Shown here piece by piece: positions 3,782-9,588 of a stretch of DNA of 44,107 nucleotides. Position 1 is the stretch's first letter; each line of letters starts with the position of its first letter. Source of the stretch: Chloroflexota bacterium (lineage in GTDB: Bacteria > Chloroflexota > Dehalococcoidia > Lucifugimonadales > Lucifugimonadaceae); NCBI GenBank assembly GCA_022564545.1, contig JADFLG010000007.1, positions 1-44,107 on the forward strand, written 5' to 3'. The notes under the pieces are model-generated. The model did no database searches. It worked only from the letters and a program-made list of their open reading frames with translations, and was not told where the DNA came from. A program made the translations under genes and the position numbers.

Positions 3782-4639
3782 ATGCAAATCACGACGAATT
3801 CCCGAGCGCCGATCATCGACGCCGCGGCGCACGCCTGGGTGGTCAACAATCCTAAATTTCCCCTTGATCCAGCCATCGCAACCTGCCCGGAAAACATGCC
3901 GACCATCGACGAGTCTGCCGAACATCTGCTCGCCCGCATGGCCAGTTATGGCATCGATCAGACCGTCATTAGCCACGTCTGCTACTACGGGCGCGACAAC
4001 CGGTACACCGCGTACTGCGTGAACACCTATCCGGAACGATTCACCGGGGTCGGTCTGCTCGCGGGTTACCGGCTGCACCCGCCAGCCGACCGTGAGAACC
4101 CGGCGAGGCTTGAACGGCTAATGCGTGATGACGGCCTTTCGGGCCTGCGGCTGAGTCCGATCTACGACCCCGATGTAGAGTGGCTGAACGACCCCGTGTC
4201 ATACCCTCTATGGCGCAAAGCGGAGGAACTCGGAGCTGCGTTCAACATATTCGCGGCCCCTCACCAGGTAGGCCAGATCGGTGACATGGCAGCCCGTTTT
4301 CCCGGCGTGAACGTCGTCGTCGATCACTTTGCCATGATCGACATCACCCGGCCGGATTCAGAAGGCTTCGAACAGCTGTTGGACCTGAATCGTCACTCCA
4401 ACGTGTACATCAGGACATCGCTGCACAACCCCTCCCGCCAGAAACTGCCTCACAGGGACATGTGGCCTTACCTGGAGAGGGCGTACGATGCCTTTGGTCC
4501 GCGGAGACTGATCTATGCGACCGGCTACGAGTTGCTCGTAATCAAGGACCTGATTCCTTTTTTCACGCGCCAGGACAAAGAGTGGATCCTGGGCGGAAAC
4601 GCTCTCGCGGTCTACCGCCCTCCCAAAATCGAAAAATAA
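3782..4639 (+). CDS. Amidohydrolase-fold protein (amidohydrolase_2 type) with altered metal site
   Basis: A 285-residue TIM-barrel protein of the amidohydrolase_2 type, which includes lactonases and decarboxylases. Family landmarks are IIDAAAHAW (11-19), GLSGLRLSP (118-125), AAPHQVG (His161), VVDHFAMID (His182) and the closing WILGGNALAVYR. Two usual metal ligands are missing. The first His of the HxH motif is Ala15, and the Asp of the usual GSDYP-type motif is replaced in YATGYE (Gly248). It may therefore bind metal differently, work without metal as some lactonases and decarboxylases do, or be non-catalytic. Next to a uronate-dehydrogenase-like gene, opening an aldaro- or sugar-lactone is an attractive but unproven role. 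Confidence 0.75.
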   Translation: MQITTNSRAPIIDAAAHAWVVNNPKFPLDPAIATCPENMPTIDESAEHLLARMASYGIDQTVISHVCYYGRDNRYTAYCVNTYPERFTGVGLLAGYRLHPPADRENPARLERLMRDDGLSGLRLSPIYDPDVEWLNDPVSYPLWRKAEELGAAFNIFAAPHQVGQIGDMAARFPGVNVVVDHFAMIDITRPDSEGFEQLLDLNRHSNVYIRTSLHNPSRQKLPHRDMWPYLERAYDAFGPRRLIYATGYELLVIKDLIPFFTRQDKEWILGGNALAVYRPPKIEK

Positions 4640-4677
4640 ATCCACGTTCGACGAAAGCCAGGGGACACAAACAAGAA

Positions 4678-5787
4678 ATGGACTATCTTCCGCTGCCGGG
4701 CACGCCGGTCGAGGAAATCGACACCCCGGCGATCATCGTCGACCTCGACATCGCTGAAGCCAACATCGAGGCGATGAGCACCTTTGCCAGCCAAAACGGT
4801 GTGAGCCTGCGCCCGCACATGAAGACCGGCAAGAGTCCTTTCTGGGCGCTCAAGCAGATCGAAGCTGGTGCCATTGGTGTTTGCGCGGCCAAGGTGGGCG
4901 AGGCCGAGATGCTGGCTGAAGGCGGCGTCAATGAAATCTTGATCACCAATCAGATTGTCGGGCAAACCAAAATTCGGCGCCTGTTCGGGGTGGCGTCACG
5001 GGCCAACGTGACCGTCGCGGTCGATAGCCACGAGAACGTTGCCGAACTGTCGGAGGCCGCACAGGCCTTCGGTCGTGAACTGGGCGTCATCCTCGAGGTA
5101 GAAACCGGCATGAAACGGGCCGGGGTCGAGCCGGGCGAGGCCGCCACGACCCTGGCGAAAGCGGTCGACCGGGCACCCGGTTTGCGCTTTGACGGCGTCA
5201 TGGGCTACGAGGGTGGCGCTGTGTACACCGAGAATTTCGACCTGCGCAAACGACAGGCCCTGGAGTCGGTCGACAATCTTTTGAGGGCGGCGGACGATAT
5301 AGAAGCTTCAGGGCTGGAGGTCAAGATCATCAGTGCTGGCGGCACCGGCACATATGACATTACCGGCAAGGTCGACCGGATAACTGAACTGCAATGCGGC
5401 AGCTATCTGTTCATGGACGCCAAGTATCTCCAGGTGTTCGGAGATCACCCCCACCCGTTCCGGCCGGCGCTGACCGTGTCAGGGACAGTGACCAGCAGGC
5501 CAGCGCCGGGCCGGGCTATCGCCGACCCCGGCCAAAAGGCCATTTCTATCGATCAAGGTGTACCGGAAGTAATCTCTATCGAAGGTGCTATCGTCCAGGG
5601 CCTGTCCGAAGAGCACTGCGTAATGAAAACGGAAGGACCTGCCGACAACCTGAAAATCGGCGACAAAATCTCATTTCTTCCAACGCACTCCGATACCACC
5701 ATTGCCCAGCACGCATATTACTTCTGTGTTCGCGACGGCGTCCTGGAAACGGTGGTCGAGATCGCCGGGCGAGGCCGATTCACTTAA
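4678..5787 (+). CDS. D-threonine aldolase / alanine racemase-type PLP enzyme (fold type III)
   Basis: A 369-residue protein starting at MDYLPLPGTP, where homology begins; the open frame extends upstream without similarity. It has the N-terminal Ala-racemase-like barrel: DTPAIIVDLD near 15-24, then RPHMKTGK, where Lys49 should form the PLP Schiff base. A C-terminal D-serine-dehydratase-like domain has the metal-site segment FLPTHSDTT. GGTGTYDI is the PLP-phosphate loop. Family members cleave D-3-hydroxy-amino acids to glycine and an aldehyde, or dehydrate D-serine or 3-hydroxyaspartate. The precise substrate is unknown. It lies 38 bases after one amidohydrolase-like gene and 48 before another, so one transcript is likely. 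Confidence 0.8.
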   Translation: MDYLPLPGTPVEEIDTPAIIVDLDIAEANIEAMSTFASQNGVSLRPHMKTGKSPFWALKQIEAGAIGVCAAKVGEAEMLAEGGVNEILITNQIVGQTKIRRLFGVASRANVTVAVDSHENVAELSEAAQAFGRELGVILEVETGMKRAGVEPGEAATTLAKAVDRAPGLRFDGVMGYEGGAVYTENFDLRKRQALESVDNLLRAADDIEASGLEVKIISAGGTGTYDITGKVDRITELQCGSYLFMDAKYLQVFGDHPHPFRPALTVSGTVTSRPAPGRAIADPGQKAISIDQGVPEVISIEGAIVQGLSEEHCVMKTEGPADNLKIGDKISFLPTHSDTTIAQHAYYFCVRDGVLETVVEIAGRGRFT

Positions 5788-5835
5788 AGACGGAAATCCC
5801 TATTTGCGACACAGAACACACCGCGGTTCACGAAC

Positions 5836-6960
5836 ATGACACAGTACCCGGTCATCTTCGATGGTCACGCTTATTGCTTCCCGGACGTGCGAGGGTCGAT
5901 GGGCTGGGCGTCGCCGGAGGCTAAACGCGTCCACGTGCAGAAATCGATGGCGAACCACCACATACAACCGTGGCGTGCACGGGACCACGCACCCGGAAGC
6001 ACCAGCACGCTCATGGACGACGCAAAGTGGCCTGGAGACGATGCGTTACGCGACGTGAACTTCCGGCCCACGACTCACGGGCGCTACGAGTGGACCGTCG
6101 ACGGCGAAGATTACGTGAAGCAGTACTTCCCGCCGTCGATCGCAGACATGGCCTATCCGCCCGAGAACCTGATCGCCGAAATGGACTACGCTAACGTCAC
6201 CGGCACCCTCCTGCACCGCAACCCCTATTTGGGCATCGGCAACGATTTCATCGCCGACTGTGTCGAAAAATTCCCGGGGCGCATATTCGGCCTGGCGCAC
6301 GCTCCTGAATGGAGGGTGGAGGATGACCCGGAAGCGGCCGCCCGCACAGTGGAGGAAGCAGTGCGTGACAGGGGCCTCTCCGGTCTGCAGTTCCTGACGT
6401 CGCAACTGCACCTGTACGGGAAAAATCCGGATTGGGCCGGTGGTGGCTTCACACCGTTCTGGGATGGGGTCGCCCGGCTCGGAGTGCCGGTCTTCTTCTC
6501 ATTTGGCATCAACGAGCCAAAGCGCGAGCCAGTGGTCGACCATTACTTTCTCGAACTGCAAAGACTGACGAAGTGGATGGAGCAGTACCCGGATACGCCG
6601 GTGGTGATGACACACGGTTTTATGTGGAGACTGTTTGCCGACCAGGGTAAATTCCAGCTGCCGGATGAGCTGTGGCGACCGTTCGAAAACCCCAACCTGT
6701 CATTGCAACTCCTGTTCGCAATCGGCCTTGGCGACACGTGGGACTTTCCGCTGCCCCAGGGGATTCCGCTGATCAAGGAGCTAGTACAGCATATCGGCGC
6801 CGACCGATTGATCTGGGGGACGGACATGCCGATCGTCATGCGCCACTGGACCTACCAGCAGAACATCGACTTCATCGTGAAGTACTGCGATTTCCTATCG
6901 AAAGAGGACCTCGCCCTCATCATGGGCGGCACGATAAAGCGACTGCTGGGGCTGGGCTGA
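5836..6960 (+). CDS. Amidohydrolase family protein (amidohydrolase_2)
   Basis: A 374-residue metal-dependent-hydrolase-fold protein and the last gene of the catabolic cluster. It opens with VIFDGHAYCF: the first His of the usual HxH (His11) is present but the second is Tyr13. Later landmarks are PVVMTHGFMWRLF and RLIWGTDMPIVM, with the conserved late Asp, and it ends MGGTIKRLLGL, the usual close. Unlike its neighbour at 3782, it keeps the late Asp. Relatives include decarboxylases and 2-pyrone or lactone hydrolases. Two distinct amidohydrolase-like genes around an aldolase-type gene suggest successive steps on one compound, which is inference. Confidence 0.75.
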   Translation: MTQYPVIFDGHAYCFPDVRGSMGWASPEAKRVHVQKSMANHHIQPWRARDHAPGSTSTLMDDAKWPGDDALRDVNFRPTTHGRYEWTVDGEDYVKQYFPPSIADMAYPPENLIAEMDYANVTGTLLHRNPYLGIGNDFIADCVEKFPGRIFGLAHAPEWRVEDDPEAAARTVEEAVRDRGLSGLQFLTSQLHLYGKNPDWAGGGFTPFWDGVARLGVPVFFSFGINEPKREPVVDHYFLELQRLTKWMEQYPDTPVVMTHGFMWRLFADQGKFQLPDELWRPFENPNLSLQLLFAIGLGDTWDFPLPQGIPLIKELVQHIGADRLIWGTDMPIVMRHWTYQQNIDFIVKYCDFLSKEDLALIMGGTIKRLLGLG

Positions 6961-7134
6961 CCTCGTGCGCACCGCGACGATACGGTTACCGGGCAACGCG
7001 ACCCGAGCAACCAGATGACCCACCGCTGAATCGAGAGTTGCCGCCGGACTAAGAAATACTGTGGTGATGCCTGTCGCCAGGCTGCCGATGGCCATATTCG
7101 TGTCGCAGCCACCTGATGCTCTCCGGGTTTGGCG

Positions 7135-9588
7135 TCACCCGGAACCGGCGCCATTTTGCTGGTCGCGTCGACCGGTCAGGAAGTAGGTGTTCAGCATCCC
7201 GATCCCTTTCACGTCGACCTTGCCCCGCTCTTCGAAGATGTGCGAACCGGCAAGTTTCTCAGTCGTCGACTCAAGCACCTGGATGCGGTTCGGAACACCG
7301 TGAGATTCCATTCGACTCGCAGTGTTCACCGTTTCACCCCAAATGTCATAAATGAACTTCTTCAGTCCGACAACGCCCGCGACAGCCGGACCGGTGTGCA
7401 TGCCGATTCGAATCCGCAAGTCGGTACCTGTCTCCTCACGATATTTTGCGAGAAGTTCCAGCATTTCGAGACCCATGTCGGCCAGTCTTTCGGCGTCGCC
7501 CTGACCGTCTGTCCCGAGCCCGCCGGCGACCATGTAGGCATCGCCAATGGTCTTGATTTTTTCGAGTGCCAGCCGCTCCGCTACTCGATCAAACAGCGAG
7601 AAGACGTGGTTCAACATTTCGACCAGATCAGACGGGCTCATGTTTCGTGATATTTGAGTGAAGCCGACCACGTCTGCGAACAGGACGCTCATGTCTTCGA
7701 AGCGATCGGCGATCAGACCTTCGCCCTTCTTCAACCTATCGGCGATCGAAGCAGGAAGAATATTGAGCAGCAAAAGCTCGTTGGCCTTGTGTGCTTCTTC
7801 CAGCTCCAACGTAGCTGTTATCTCTGTCCCGTACAGGTTGATGAACCCGAACTCGAAAACGCCAACAACGAGCAGTGAGAACGTTCGACCCTCGGTTGAA
7901 ACCTCAACTGACTCAGAGGAACCGCTATCCGAGATTGCCTTGATTTTGGCGAAGAATTCCTCTGGCAGACTTTCACCGACCCTGGCCCCGATTGCTTTCA
8001 AGGTGAGTTCACTCGCGGGGTTTGCATACTCGACCACCTGGTCATTCGAAATACGCAGGACGGGATTGGGGTTTTGGTCCGGGAACTTGTTCATGGCGAT
8101 GCGAGCCGTAATGTCGTCGCCATAGATGTTCGTGATGTCGAACTCCCGGGTGTGCACAGGCGTCAACGAGTAGGTCCGGCCCTCACCGCTCACTTCGAGC
8201 GGATCAGATGATTTTCCCGACCTCAGCGCCTCGATCGTGCTCAGCATCTCGGGGCTGAACAGGTCGCCTACCTCCATGCCCATCGCTCTGACGACAGGCG
8301 CGCCCGCCGAGTTGGCGTACTCAAGCCGGCCTTCCGGCGACATGCGCATTACCGGGCTGGGGTTCAGGTCGGGAAACTTGTTCAGCACTTTCATCGCGGT
8401 AATGTCGGTACCGTAAATGTTGATGCAGTTGAACTCGAACACCGCGACCACCAACAATGAAAATACTCGATCATCGGCCTCGACTTCGATAGTTTCGGAC
8501 GATCCGCTATCCGCGATCTTCGAGAACTGCTGCATCAAAACGGCCGGCAGTTTTTCGCCTATCTCGATTCCCATGGCCTTGCAGATGGGCTCACTGGCAG
8601 GGTTGGCATATTCGAGGTTGCCGTCGATTGAAACCCTCAGCACCGGATTCGGGTTCTGGTCCGGGAACTTGTTCATGGCGATTCGCGCCGTGATGTCCAG
8701 GCCATAGATGTTGGTTATCTCGAACTCAGGTGTGTAAACCGGTTTCAGCGAATACGTCCGGCCATCCCCGCTCACCAGCAGTGGCTCGTCGGTCCGATCG
8801 TGGCAGATATCTTCGATCGACCTGATGATGTCGGGACTGAACTTGCCACCCACCACCATTCCCATGGCATCGACCACCGCGTCGGCAGCGGCATTGGCGT
8901 AATCCAGAGTTCCGTCCCCGGTCATTTTCATCACGGGGTTCGGGTTCAAGTCCGGAAACTTGTTCAATACTTTCATCGCCGTAATGTCGGTGCCGTACAC
9001 GTTTATGAAGTCGAGATCTCCGAAAAGAACCGGGAACAGCGAATACGTCTTAACGCCCGCCGGGACCTCGATCGAACCACTGAGTTCCTTTTCCACCTCG
9101 CTGGTCAGATTCTGAAACAGACTCGCTGGTAATCGGTCGCCTTCAGAAATGCCCAGGGCTGACGTGATTGGATCGCTTGCCGAGTTTGAGTAGAGAAGGT
9201 CCCCCGCCAACGAGACACGCATCACCGGGTTAGGGTTCATATTCGGAAACTTGTTAATGGCCTCGAGTTGATCTCGCAGCCGACCATGCGCAGCCGAATT
9301 CGCACGTCTTGCAGAACCGACAACCGTGGCGCTGGTGAGGAGAGAAACGGTGAAGGGCACCATGACGGTCAGCGGTATTTGCCAGGCCATCTGAGACGTA
9401 AATTCACCAGCCAGGATCGACGCACCCTGTGTGATTGCGACGAGCGTGATTCCAACTATGATTGCCGTTTTGATCGCCCGTCTGATCACCCGCCCCTCGC
9501 GTAGATCACCGAGCCAGATTCGCGTTTGCATCGTGAGTAACTTTGAACGATTATCCGTGTTCCGGATCAGAAGGTTACCGGAACTCAC
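7135..9588 (-). CDS. Membrane-anchored class III adenylyl cyclase with five tandem PAS-like repeats
   Basis: An 817-residue signalling enzyme. Two hydrophobic spans (about 41-60 and 69-91) anchor it. Five repeats follow from residue 112 to about 596, each exactly 97 residues, each beginning NKFPxxNPxPV and ending near YGxDIT, which suggests PAS folds. A helical linker (LELEEAHKANELLLLNILP) leads to the cyclase domain. VLFADVVGFT and IGDAYMVAGG carry the two metal-binding Asp residues. IKTIGDAYM has the purine-selecting Lys, and IYDIWGETVNTASRMES carries the adenine-selecting Asp plus the transition-state Asn and Arg. These choices favour ATP over GTP, so cAMP is the likely product. The gene stands alone and converges with the catabolic cluster. 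Ligand and effector are unknown. Confidence 0.9.
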   Translation of the reverse strand: MSSGNLLIRNTDNRSKLLTMQTRIWLGDLREGRVIRRAIKTAIIVGITLVAITQGASILAGEFTSQMAWQIPLTVMVPFTVSLLTSATVVGSARRANSAAHGRLRDQLEAINKFPNMNPNPVMRVSLAGDLLYSNSASDPITSALGISEGDRLPASLFQNLTSEVEKELSGSIEVPAGVKTYSLFPVLFGDLDFINVYGTDITAMKVLNKFPDLNPNPVMKMTGDGTLDYANAAADAVVDAMGMVVGGKFSPDIIRSIEDICHDRTDEPLLVSGDGRTYSLKPVYTPEFEITNIYGLDITARIAMNKFPDQNPNPVLRVSIDGNLEYANPASEPICKAMGIEIGEKLPAVLMQQFSKIADSGSSETIEVEADDRVFSLLVVAVFEFNCINIYGTDITAMKVLNKFPDLNPSPVMRMSPEGRLEYANSAGAPVVRAMGMEVGDLFSPEMLSTIEALRSGKSSDPLEVSGEGRTYSLTPVHTREFDITNIYGDDITARIAMNKFPDQNPNPVLRISNDQVVEYANPASELTLKAIGARVGESLPEEFFAKIKAISDSGSSESVEVSTEGRTFSLLVVGVFEFGFINLYGTEITATLELEEAHKANELLLLNILPASIADRLKKGEGLIADRFEDMSVLFADVVGFTQISRNMSPSDLVEMLNHVFSLFDRVAERLALEKIKTIGDAYMVAGGLGTDGQGDAERLADMGLEMLELLAKYREETGTDLRIRIGMHTGPAVAGVVGLKKFIYDIWGETVNTASRMESHGVPNRIQVLESTTEKLAGSHIFEERGKVDVKGIGMLNTYFLTGRRDQQNGAGSG

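Follow-up and report, generated by a model that had tools for sequence, protein, structure and literature searches.

What signal could set the activity of a predicted cAMP-making enzyme in marine SAR202 bacteria (Chloroflexota)? For many bacterial membrane cyclases we know of no established input. In the window, by which we mean the whole stretch of 44,107 nucleotides that was analysed, one open reading frame of Ca. Lucifugimonas encodes a predicted membrane-bound class III adenylyl cyclase whose membrane part belongs to a family for which the class of substrate is known, and this allows a direct, testable guess at the ligand. The guess concerns a widespread ocean clade of which a cultivated member exists. 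The features are the following, in coordinates of the window.

7135..9588, minus strand: whole open reading frame, 817 amino acids from GTG, best described as NrtS-P1-(P2-P3)-(P2-P3)-cyclase
9529..9531, minus strand: likelier start, ATG (Met20), giving a 798-residue product (ATG conservation)
9340..9477, minus strand: NrtS-like two-helix membrane domain, residues 38-83 (NF038050, stand-alone-NrtS HMM, hhalign)
8965..9255, minus strand: PAS repeat 1 (R1), residues 112-208, class P1 or P2, never P3 (alignment, tree, class HMMs)
8674..8964, minus strand: PAS repeat 2 (R2), residues 209-305, class P2 (alignment, tree, class HMMs)
8383..8673, minus strand: PAS repeat 3 (R3), residues 306-402, class P3 (alignment, tree, class HMMs)
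8092..8382, minus strand: PAS repeat 4 (R4), residues 403-499, class P2 (alignment, tree, class HMMs)
7801..8091, minus strand: PAS repeat 5 (R5), residues 500-596, class P3 (class HMMs, PAS-fold model)
7711..7800, minus strand: helical linker from the last PAS repeat to the cyclase, residues 597-626 (structure model)
7174..7710, minus strand: class III adenylyl cyclase catalytic domain, residues 627-805 (PF00211, Foldseek)
7672..7674, minus strand: Asp639, D in 28/28 aligned cyclase domains
7552..7554, minus strand: Lys679 (KTIGDAYM), K in 28/28
7540..7542, minus strand: Asp683, D in 28/28
7345..7347, minus strand: Asp748 (FIYDIWG), D in 27/28

The ATG at 9531 (residue 20) is invariant in all five aligned loci, which come from four genomes, and the DNA upstream of it is less conserved. 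A second cyclase copy, in genome G014, had been taken as broken by a stop; its frame is open up to the contig end (356 aa), so the apparent break is a contig-edge effect.

The catalytic domain matched PF00211 at E=5.9e-58 (195.9 bits against a cut-off of 21.9) and, by Foldseek, the structures 5o5l (E 3.9e-21) and 5o5k (E 1.2e-20). The 28 aligned cyclase domains comprise five from the genus and 23 from relatives, a set distinct from the 28 class relatives considered below. Lys679 and Asp748 correspond to the ATP-selecting residues, and Asp639 and Asp683 to the metal-binding aspartates 1 and 2; the sole exception at Asp748 is L054, whose frame there reads as unrelated sequence. The Asn and Arg of adenylyl cyclases are also present, as N755 and R759. 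A reading made earlier from the sequence alone had proposed a cyclase with ATP-type Lys and Asp; both residues are indeed there. By computation from the sequence, the domain carries every residue type looked for in an adenylyl cyclase: the metal-binding aspartates, the Lys/Asp pair and the Asn/Arg pair. Ten proteins were excluded from the cyclase tree, either by pattern or as truncated, and two of its entries, L062 and L066, are one gene twice.

NrtS is a small stand-alone transporter family for nitrate and nitrite, and the window's NrtS domain is part of an 817-residue protein. The curated cut-off of the family model NF038050 is 25 bits; the domain scored 25.9 when the genome was searched, 25.5 and 26.4 when N-terminal slices were scored, and 21.3 when the whole protein was. 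With an HMM built from 24 stand-alone NrtS proteins it reached 51.1 bits. The best non-NrtS frame among 4,456 scanned reached 10.1, and shuffling the hairpin 5,000 times gave no score above 14.7; all NrtS and NrtS-cyclase frames scored at least 43.9, the 24 by construction. Profile-profile comparison (hhalign) aligned the fused domain with stand-alone NrtS over 61 columns at a probability of 99.6% (E 1.3e-24), and all 12 fused N-termini given to NF038050 matched it at E<=0.1 (best 2.3e-10). These computations show that the predicted N-terminal hairpin belongs to the NrtS family. The Asn of the I-N-[QH] turn is present in 24/24 aligned stand-alone proteins (24 of 26, with L087 and L096 left out); the window protein and four other genus copies have Thr there, as do both f56 copies having the domain, and 7/14 fused NrtS domains retain Asn. 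This membrane domain went unnoticed in the sequence-only reading.

That reading had described five 97-residue repeats running through residues 112-596, and the alignment confirms them, without gaps. Scored with BLOSUM62 and no gaps, every pair of repeats reached 167 or more, compared with a mean of -86 and a maximum of -6 for 20,000 shuffled pairs. The period is also exactly 97 in L007, L008 and L009, the remaining complete copies of the genus, and ranges from 95 to 106 among more distant relatives. The motifs given for repeats 2 and 4 are present, and repeat 5 reads INLYGTEIT, not TDIT as had been stated. The proposed PAS fold also held: since the repeat profile had no match to PDB sequences at E<=1, a fold search was needed, and repeat 5 modelled alone adopted a PAS fold (pLDDT 93.1, pTM 0.85) with 11 PDB matches at E<=0.001 (TMq 0.59-0.64). 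Seven are titled PAS domains, and the remaining four (2jhe, 3fc7 twice and 2ykh) are presumably sensor or regulator chains holding PAS. Pfam PAS_4 exceeded its cut-off in one stretch, 504-539 (25.3 bits against 23.1), and single repeats were mostly missed, 8/68 matching PAS_4 at E<=0.01. In the single-repeat alignment, which used 68 of 82 listed repeats, F3, P8, R13, N24, N85, Y87 and others are near-invariant, and no column has Cys, His or Trp above 30%, making canonical haem or LOV-type cofactors unlikely.

Within the array, amino acid identity is 63% for R2-R4, 61% for R3-R5, 52% for R1-R3 and 40% for R1-R5, and 34-44% for the six odd-even pairs. A recent tandem duplication at the DNA level is rejected: DNA identities are 67% (R2-R4) and 64% (R3-R5), and the tandem-repeat finder listed no 291-base period, its 500-base limit being too short to show the two-repeat unit of 582 bases.

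In relatives within the phylum the same cyclase is preceded by as many as three distinct repeats, P1-P2-P3, and in the tree the repeats of three-repeat relatives outside the genus form three position-specific classes. This tree used 50 of 94 repeats: it excludes the genus fragments L010 and L014, the third repeat of L029, which was masked, all proteins with two repeats and a further six with three, and L028 and L066 had been removed beforehand as near or exact duplicates. R3 and R5 grouped with P3 to the exclusion of R1 (support 97/96; 95/89 without the last 15 columns), R2 grouped with R4 (100/99), and R1 was unplaced beside the first repeats of relatives. Class HMMs, which gave 30/30 in a leave-one-protein-out control, assigned R3 and R5 to P3 in 5/5 each and R1 in 0/5. 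Whole R1 repeats went to P2 in 4/5 and P1 in 1/5; without the last 15 columns they went to P1 in 3/5 and P2 in 2/5, by small margins. Because of this split and the unplaced position in the tree, we do not call R1 a clean P1. The tail of repeat 3 (its last ~13 residues, ..YGTDITAMKVL) resembles repeat 1.

These results bear on the alternating A/B pattern that the sequence-only reading had proposed, in which repeats 1, 3 and 5 form one class and the two classes keep two roles, as two ligands or as alternating dimer contacts. The even class stands as R2+R4, a branch of 83/96 sets P2 off from P1+P3 as the pattern would have it, and a single clade of R1, R3 and R5 remained acceptable in an AU test on whole repeats (p=0.13). 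The odd class fails for R1-R5, because their 40% identity falls inside the odd-even range; R1 lies outside the R3/R5/P3 group in the tree and the HMM assignments, and without the last 15 columns the single clade has p=0.017. We consider the alternating model very improbable and set it aside, with the whole-repeat AU test not excluding it, for an array best described, from these class assignments, as P1-(P2-P3)-(P2-P3), in which R1 and R5 as classified are not one class. The tree and the class HMMs agree with the earlier suggestion that a two-PAS unit was duplicated, and the five repeats are accounted for by doubling one P2-P3 pair of an NrtS-P1-P2-P3-cyclase. In another Chloroflexota class, seven proteins (L021, L022, L023, L029, L050, L054 and L055) have this domain order and the repeat classes P1-P2-P3, with three PAS repeats compared with five here and a spacing of 95-98. 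The order P1-P2-P3 is not universal: among 10 two-repeat relatives, the second repeat is P3 in L031 only, and those of the others score as P2 or P1.

The in-depth search for the fusion covered Chloroflexota. The NrtS-PAS-cyclase order recurred in 9/28 relatives of the other class, indicating that the fusion is old, or spread and was kept; 18/28 have the PAS-cyclase with no recognisable NrtS, and one more (L051) ends at a contig edge. When the window was compared with seven stretches of 18-19 kb taken around the cyclase in three genus genomes, the only shared gene was the cyclase itself (frames of at least 100 aa, E<=1e-15; two further rows were its antisense shadows), and the other genus loci have neighbours in common with one another. 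Of the 10 window frames scanned, none suggests nitrate, and the genome from which the window comes has no NapA above cut-off. Across genomes, NapA exceeded its cut-off in 2/5 with the cyclase compared with 1/14 without, a distribution that is not informative; napA was found in genome G013. The cultivated relative L. marina is reported to encode NapAB and NosZ (PMC10444878). A PF00027 protein was over cut-off in 4/5 genomes with the cyclase and 2/14 without (Fisher p=0.017, post hoc and uncorrected), the one in G005 being of another kind. The window genome has a single cNMP-domain sensor kinase, its gene beside a receiver/thioredoxin-reductase fusion.

With a membrane end made of an NrtS module and a middle of five PAS domains, the protein might detect nitrate or nitrite directly. 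Our preferred reading, to which we give a probability of roughly 45%, is a receptor cyclase in which nitrate or nitrite at the hairpin, an inferred ligand, would act through a PAS spine to set how much cAMP is made. The protein would be a homodimer; within the membrane its hairpin would associate into a dimer or oligomer and sense the anion from outside or in transit. A change in helix packing would then pass down the PAS stack and, by way of the short helical linker, reach the cyclase dimer, altering cAMP synthesis; in the model of the 798-aa chain, the linker region contains helices at 572-591 and 594-601. The stack would serve as a dimer spine and possibly as a second, cytosolic input, the extra P2-P3 pair making it longer by two domains with no new ligand required, and the single cNMP-domain sensor kinase may be a receiver of the cAMP. 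NrtS homology, the recurrent fusion, the PAS fold, the repeat classes, the cyclase residues, NapAB/NosZ of L. marina and the cNMP-domain kinase speak for this receptor; against it stand Thr for Asn, the whole-protein score of 21.3 bits, the 18/28 relatives, the absence of shared neighbours and of a nitrate frame in the window, the NapA distribution and the full-protein model (pTM 0.33), in which the helix from NrtS to PAS has low confidence. That such a receptor arose by capture of a two-helix NrtS transporter, converting external nitrate or nitrite straight into cAMP through a spine extendable two domains at a time, is a more tentative proposal.

The main rival holds that NrtS merely anchors and dimerises the protein and that the cyclase is controlled by the PAS stack, which would sense redox state or a metabolite of the cytosol. 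Retention of PAS repeats and cyclase in relatives with no recognisable NrtS, Thr in place of the invariant Asn in the genus and near-invariant repeat residues such as a pocket might have all argue for it. Yet a mere anchor need not remain recognisable as NrtS, and it has done so in two classes of the phylum; with no repeat column above 30% Cys, His or Trp, canonical haem or LOV-type cofactors are unlikely, and no ligand is suggested. We regard this anchor as a serious possibility, short of an even chance. A bifunctional transceptor, in which the NrtS part still moves nitrate or nitrite across the membrane, with the cyclase gated by that flux, would draw on the 61-column alignment with stand-alone NrtS proteins, which, as Maeda et al. 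reportedly found in 2019, form oligomers and work as transporters of nitrate/nitrite. The Thr in the genus and f56 copies tells against retained transport, and we consider the transceptor improbable.

If the receptor reading is right, it would add a further route, besides the NarX/NarQ kinases, from nitrate or nitrite to a bacterial signal, and the array would be a natural case of a PAS spine extended by a whole P2-P3 pair. We found no report of an NrtS-adenylyl cyclase fusion in the open-licence literature, as judged by title and start of abstract, and no paper there on adenylate cyclase in SAR202. Like NrtS (NF038050), the window domain is a two-helix hairpin, with a profile alignment over 61 columns and a score around the curated cut-off; it differs in its fusion to PAS repeats and cyclase and in its Thr. 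The sensor of NarX and NarQ is not known to be an NrtS hairpin. The likeness to these kinases (reviewed in PMC8199190) would lie in a membrane receptor, the same anions and a helical signal path; their output is phosphotransfer, whereas that of the window protein is predicted to be cAMP. In its main text, this review of nitrate/nitrite-sensing kinases does not contain the word NrtS. The catalytic domain is 44-45% identical to the bacterial class III cyclases 5o5l and 5o5k (222 and 215 columns), and the catalytic residues checked are present. Rv1625c (4p2f, 7yzk) is another such cyclase, and its membrane domain has six helices; in contrast, the membrane part here is an NrtS hairpin, with five PAS domains between it and the cyclase.

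The cyclase ORF carries, N-terminal to its repeats, a transporter-family domain that would give the PAS-cyclase its membrane input, and we regard this predicted arrangement as more interesting than the repeats themselves. The features, all on the minus strand, are as follows.

7135-9588, minus strand: cyclase ORF, 817 residues counted from GTG
9529-9531, minus strand: ATG at codon 20, candidate start
Residues 38-83, minus strand: NrtS-like membrane domain, matching the NCBIfam NrtS family of nitrate/nitrite transporters
Residues 112-596, minus strand: five 97-residue repeats in an ungapped alignment
Residues 627-805, minus strand: class III nucleotidyl cyclase domain (PF00211, E 5.9e-58)

The ATG is likelier than the GTG to be the true start, because it is invariant in five aligned loci from four genomes and the DNA 5' of it is less conserved. 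An antisense ORF overlying the cyclase (7117-7647, plus strand), with similar antisense ORFs in three loci of the genus, is a shadow of the conserved cyclase coding strand. An alanine-racemase-N/D-serine-dehydratase-like gene lies between two Amidohydro_2 genes (3782-6960, plus strand); the three converge with the cyclase and may form a catabolic cluster.

The NCBIfam NrtS score was borderline against a cut-off of 25 bits (whole protein, 21.3; N-terminal slices, 25.5 and 26.4; genome search, 25.9), and the domain was therefore tested separately. All 12 fused N-termini given matched NrtS at E ≤0.1 (best 2.3e-10), and an alignment of 12 fused domains compared with one of 24 stand-alone NrtS domains gave 99.6% probability over 61 columns. 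A profile built from 24 stand-alone NrtS proteins alone scored the window protein at 51.1 bits; the hairpin shuffled 5,000 times reached at most 14.7. Across 4,456 ORFs, all matches of at least 43.9 bits to this profile were NrtS proteins or NrtS-cyclases, a level that the 24 proteins used to build it reach by construction, and the next score was 10.1. Among 28 relatives from one other Chloroflexota class, nine have the NrtS domain, 18 have no recognisable one and one (L051) is cut at a contig edge, with no intermediate NrtS scores in this set. The sequence-only reading was right that the repeats are real but overlooked the membrane domain before them.

Maeda et al. (Plant Cell Physiol. 2019) reportedly found NrtS proteins to be oligomers that transport nitrate and nitrite. 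We favour a reading in which the NrtS-headed cyclase responds to nitrate or nitrite, with the ligand itself hypothetical. Both hairpin ends presumably lie on the basic, cytosolic side, judging from flanking Arg and Lys, and in the full-length model the second hairpin helix continues toward the first PAS domain, with low confidence at model residues 77-94. Nitrate or nitrite at the hairpin would alter helix packing, and the PAS spine and helical linker would relay this change to the dimeric cyclase. Helices that carry signals from sensor to cyclase domains are established (PMC1592074).

The window's genome is classed in the same genus as Candidatus Lucifugimonas marina JH1073 (G013). PMC10444878 places Candidatus Lucifugimonas in SAR202, class Dehalococcoidia, and reports that L. 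marina encodes NapAB and NosZ. The cyclase lies ∼29 kb from napA in L. marina (G013), as does the cyclase fragment on contig C155 of G014. These two cyclase-napA intervals (G013:C1 1,832,938-1,866,928 and G014:C155 219-32,388) have many genes in common in the same order. No NapA over the cut-off was found in the window's genome, where the cyclase neighbourhood differs from both regions. The sole PF00027 match in each of the window's genome (L107, G000:C131) and L. marina (L106) is a cNMP-domain histidine-kinase-like protein adjoining a receiver-domain/thioredoxin-reductase fusion, kinase and reductase being named by eye. This protein is a possible cAMP receiver, which the four further cyclase matches in the window's genome, two of them strong, could also feed.

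The repeats align without insertions or deletions, as had been claimed; the lowest-scoring pair reached 167, compared with a mean of -86 and a maximum of -6 for 20,000 shuffled pairs, and they are thus real and far above chance. The full-length model (798 residues, 23 aligned sequences; mean pLDDT 78.5, pTM 0.33) predicts the single domains and not their mutual arrangement. Each repeat is modelled as strand-strand-helix-helix-strand-strand-strand followed by a closing helix. Repeat 5 modelled alone with 68 aligned repeats (pLDDT 93.1, pTM 0.85) had 11 PDB matches at E ≤0.001 (best 2.9e-4; query TM-score 0.59-0.64), all PAS domains by title or sensor/regulator chains with a PAS domain, in agreement with the proposed PAS fold. 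Pfam mostly misses these repeats, since PAS_4 covers part of only one repeat in the whole protein and matches 8 of 68 single repeats at E ≤0.01. A canonical haem or LOV cofactor is disfavoured, because no column of the 68 aligned repeats has Cys, His or Trp in >30%.

An alternating A/B pattern had been proposed, with the odd repeats as one class and the even repeats as the other. The even half of this proposal held, as did the duplication of a two-PAS unit; the odd half was not supported. A tree built from 50 repeats placed R2 and R4 among the repeats at the second position of three-repeat relatives and R3 and R5 among those at the third position (97/96), with R1 outside. Class profiles trained on the relatives alone, one each for the first, second and third position, assigned R2 and R4 to class 2 and R3 and R5 to class 3 (5/5 each); R1 fell, with small margins, in class 2 (4/5) or class 1 (1/5) and never in class 3. 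Leaving out one protein at a time placed 30/30 relatives' repeats in their own position, and six three-repeat relatives kept out of training gave 16/18, with L053 and L062 each missed at the third position. Two-repeat relatives were less clear, with class 3 in 1 of 20 repeats (the second of L031). In L062, an otherwise diverged three-PAS cyclase, repeats 2 and 3 begin with the same 24 residues, as if copied by gene conversion. We infer that the Lucifugimonas order is 1-2-3-2-3 rather than A/B.

An AU test on whole repeats did not reject R1, R3 and R5 as one clade (p=0.132); without the last 15 columns, a cut picked only after the repeat ends had been inspected, this clade was rejected (p=0.017). 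The weight of these columns comes from the end of R3, which resembles that of R1 (YGTDITAMKVL) and not that of R5: over the last 13 residues in four genomes, R1-R3 identity is 0.77-0.92 versus 0.62 for R3-R5. Such an end could result from a crossover close to it, or from selection acting on the segment that links the repeat to the PAS domain after it. R3 and R5 form a single clade at 85/76 only, and a grouping of R5, without R3, with the third repeats of the relatives was not rejected (p=0.295). The simplest history would be an NrtS-P1-P2-P3-cyclase ancestor (P, PAS repeat) whose P2-P3 unit was duplicated; the duplication would predate the divergence of the four sampled genomes, across which each of the five repeat positions forms one clade (R4 weakly, 72/90).

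Of the 19 genomes of the genus, four (G000, G007, G013 and G014) had the complete five-repeat protein, with contig-end fragments in G012 and, as a second occurrence, in G014. The contigs of the two fragments L014 (start of G014 C155) and L010 (start of G012 C6) break inside repeat 3, probably because repeats disrupt assembly; the fragments overlap in protein sequence, and bins SI053_bin67 and SI053_bin14 may share a strain. No match was found in the 18 other genomes of the family, and three of 23 order-mates gave weak single-PAS matches in ORFs resembling sensor kinases. In a sample of 400 genomes from across the phylum, the array profile found matches in 25, the window's own among them; the strong matches outside the genus fell in the one other class, in which 28/177 genomes carry the array at E ≤1e-20. 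Three repeats occur in 16 of these relatives (L051 beginning at a contig edge) and two in 10; the remaining two end at a contig end after two repeats. The cyclase tree groups the genus copies with L023 (f68) and L024 (f56) of that class (85/92), and in the repeat tree R2/R4 cluster with repeat 2 of L023/L057 (87/81). Taken with the absence of the protein elsewhere in the family and in the order sample, these groupings suggest, with moderate support, that the genus gained the cyclase from that class by horizontal transfer.

The cyclase domain resembles known enzymes: its closest solved structures, 5o5l and 5o5k, are bacterial adenylyl cyclase domains with 44-45% identity. Among 28 aligned domains (five from the genus and 23 relatives), Asp639, Lys679, Asp683 and Arg759 are kept in all, and Asp748 and Asn755 in 27, the sole exception both times being L054, whose frame is unrelated sequence at these positions. 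Lys679 and Asp748, which we take to select ATP over GTP, are thus present, as had been proposed. The membrane domain differs from its known counterparts. An Asn invariant in 24 aligned stand-alone NrtS proteins (two odd proteins of 26 left out) is present in 7 of 14 fused domains and is replaced by Thr in both f56 copies and in the Lucifugimonas copies; the fused domain is accordingly not a standard NrtS.
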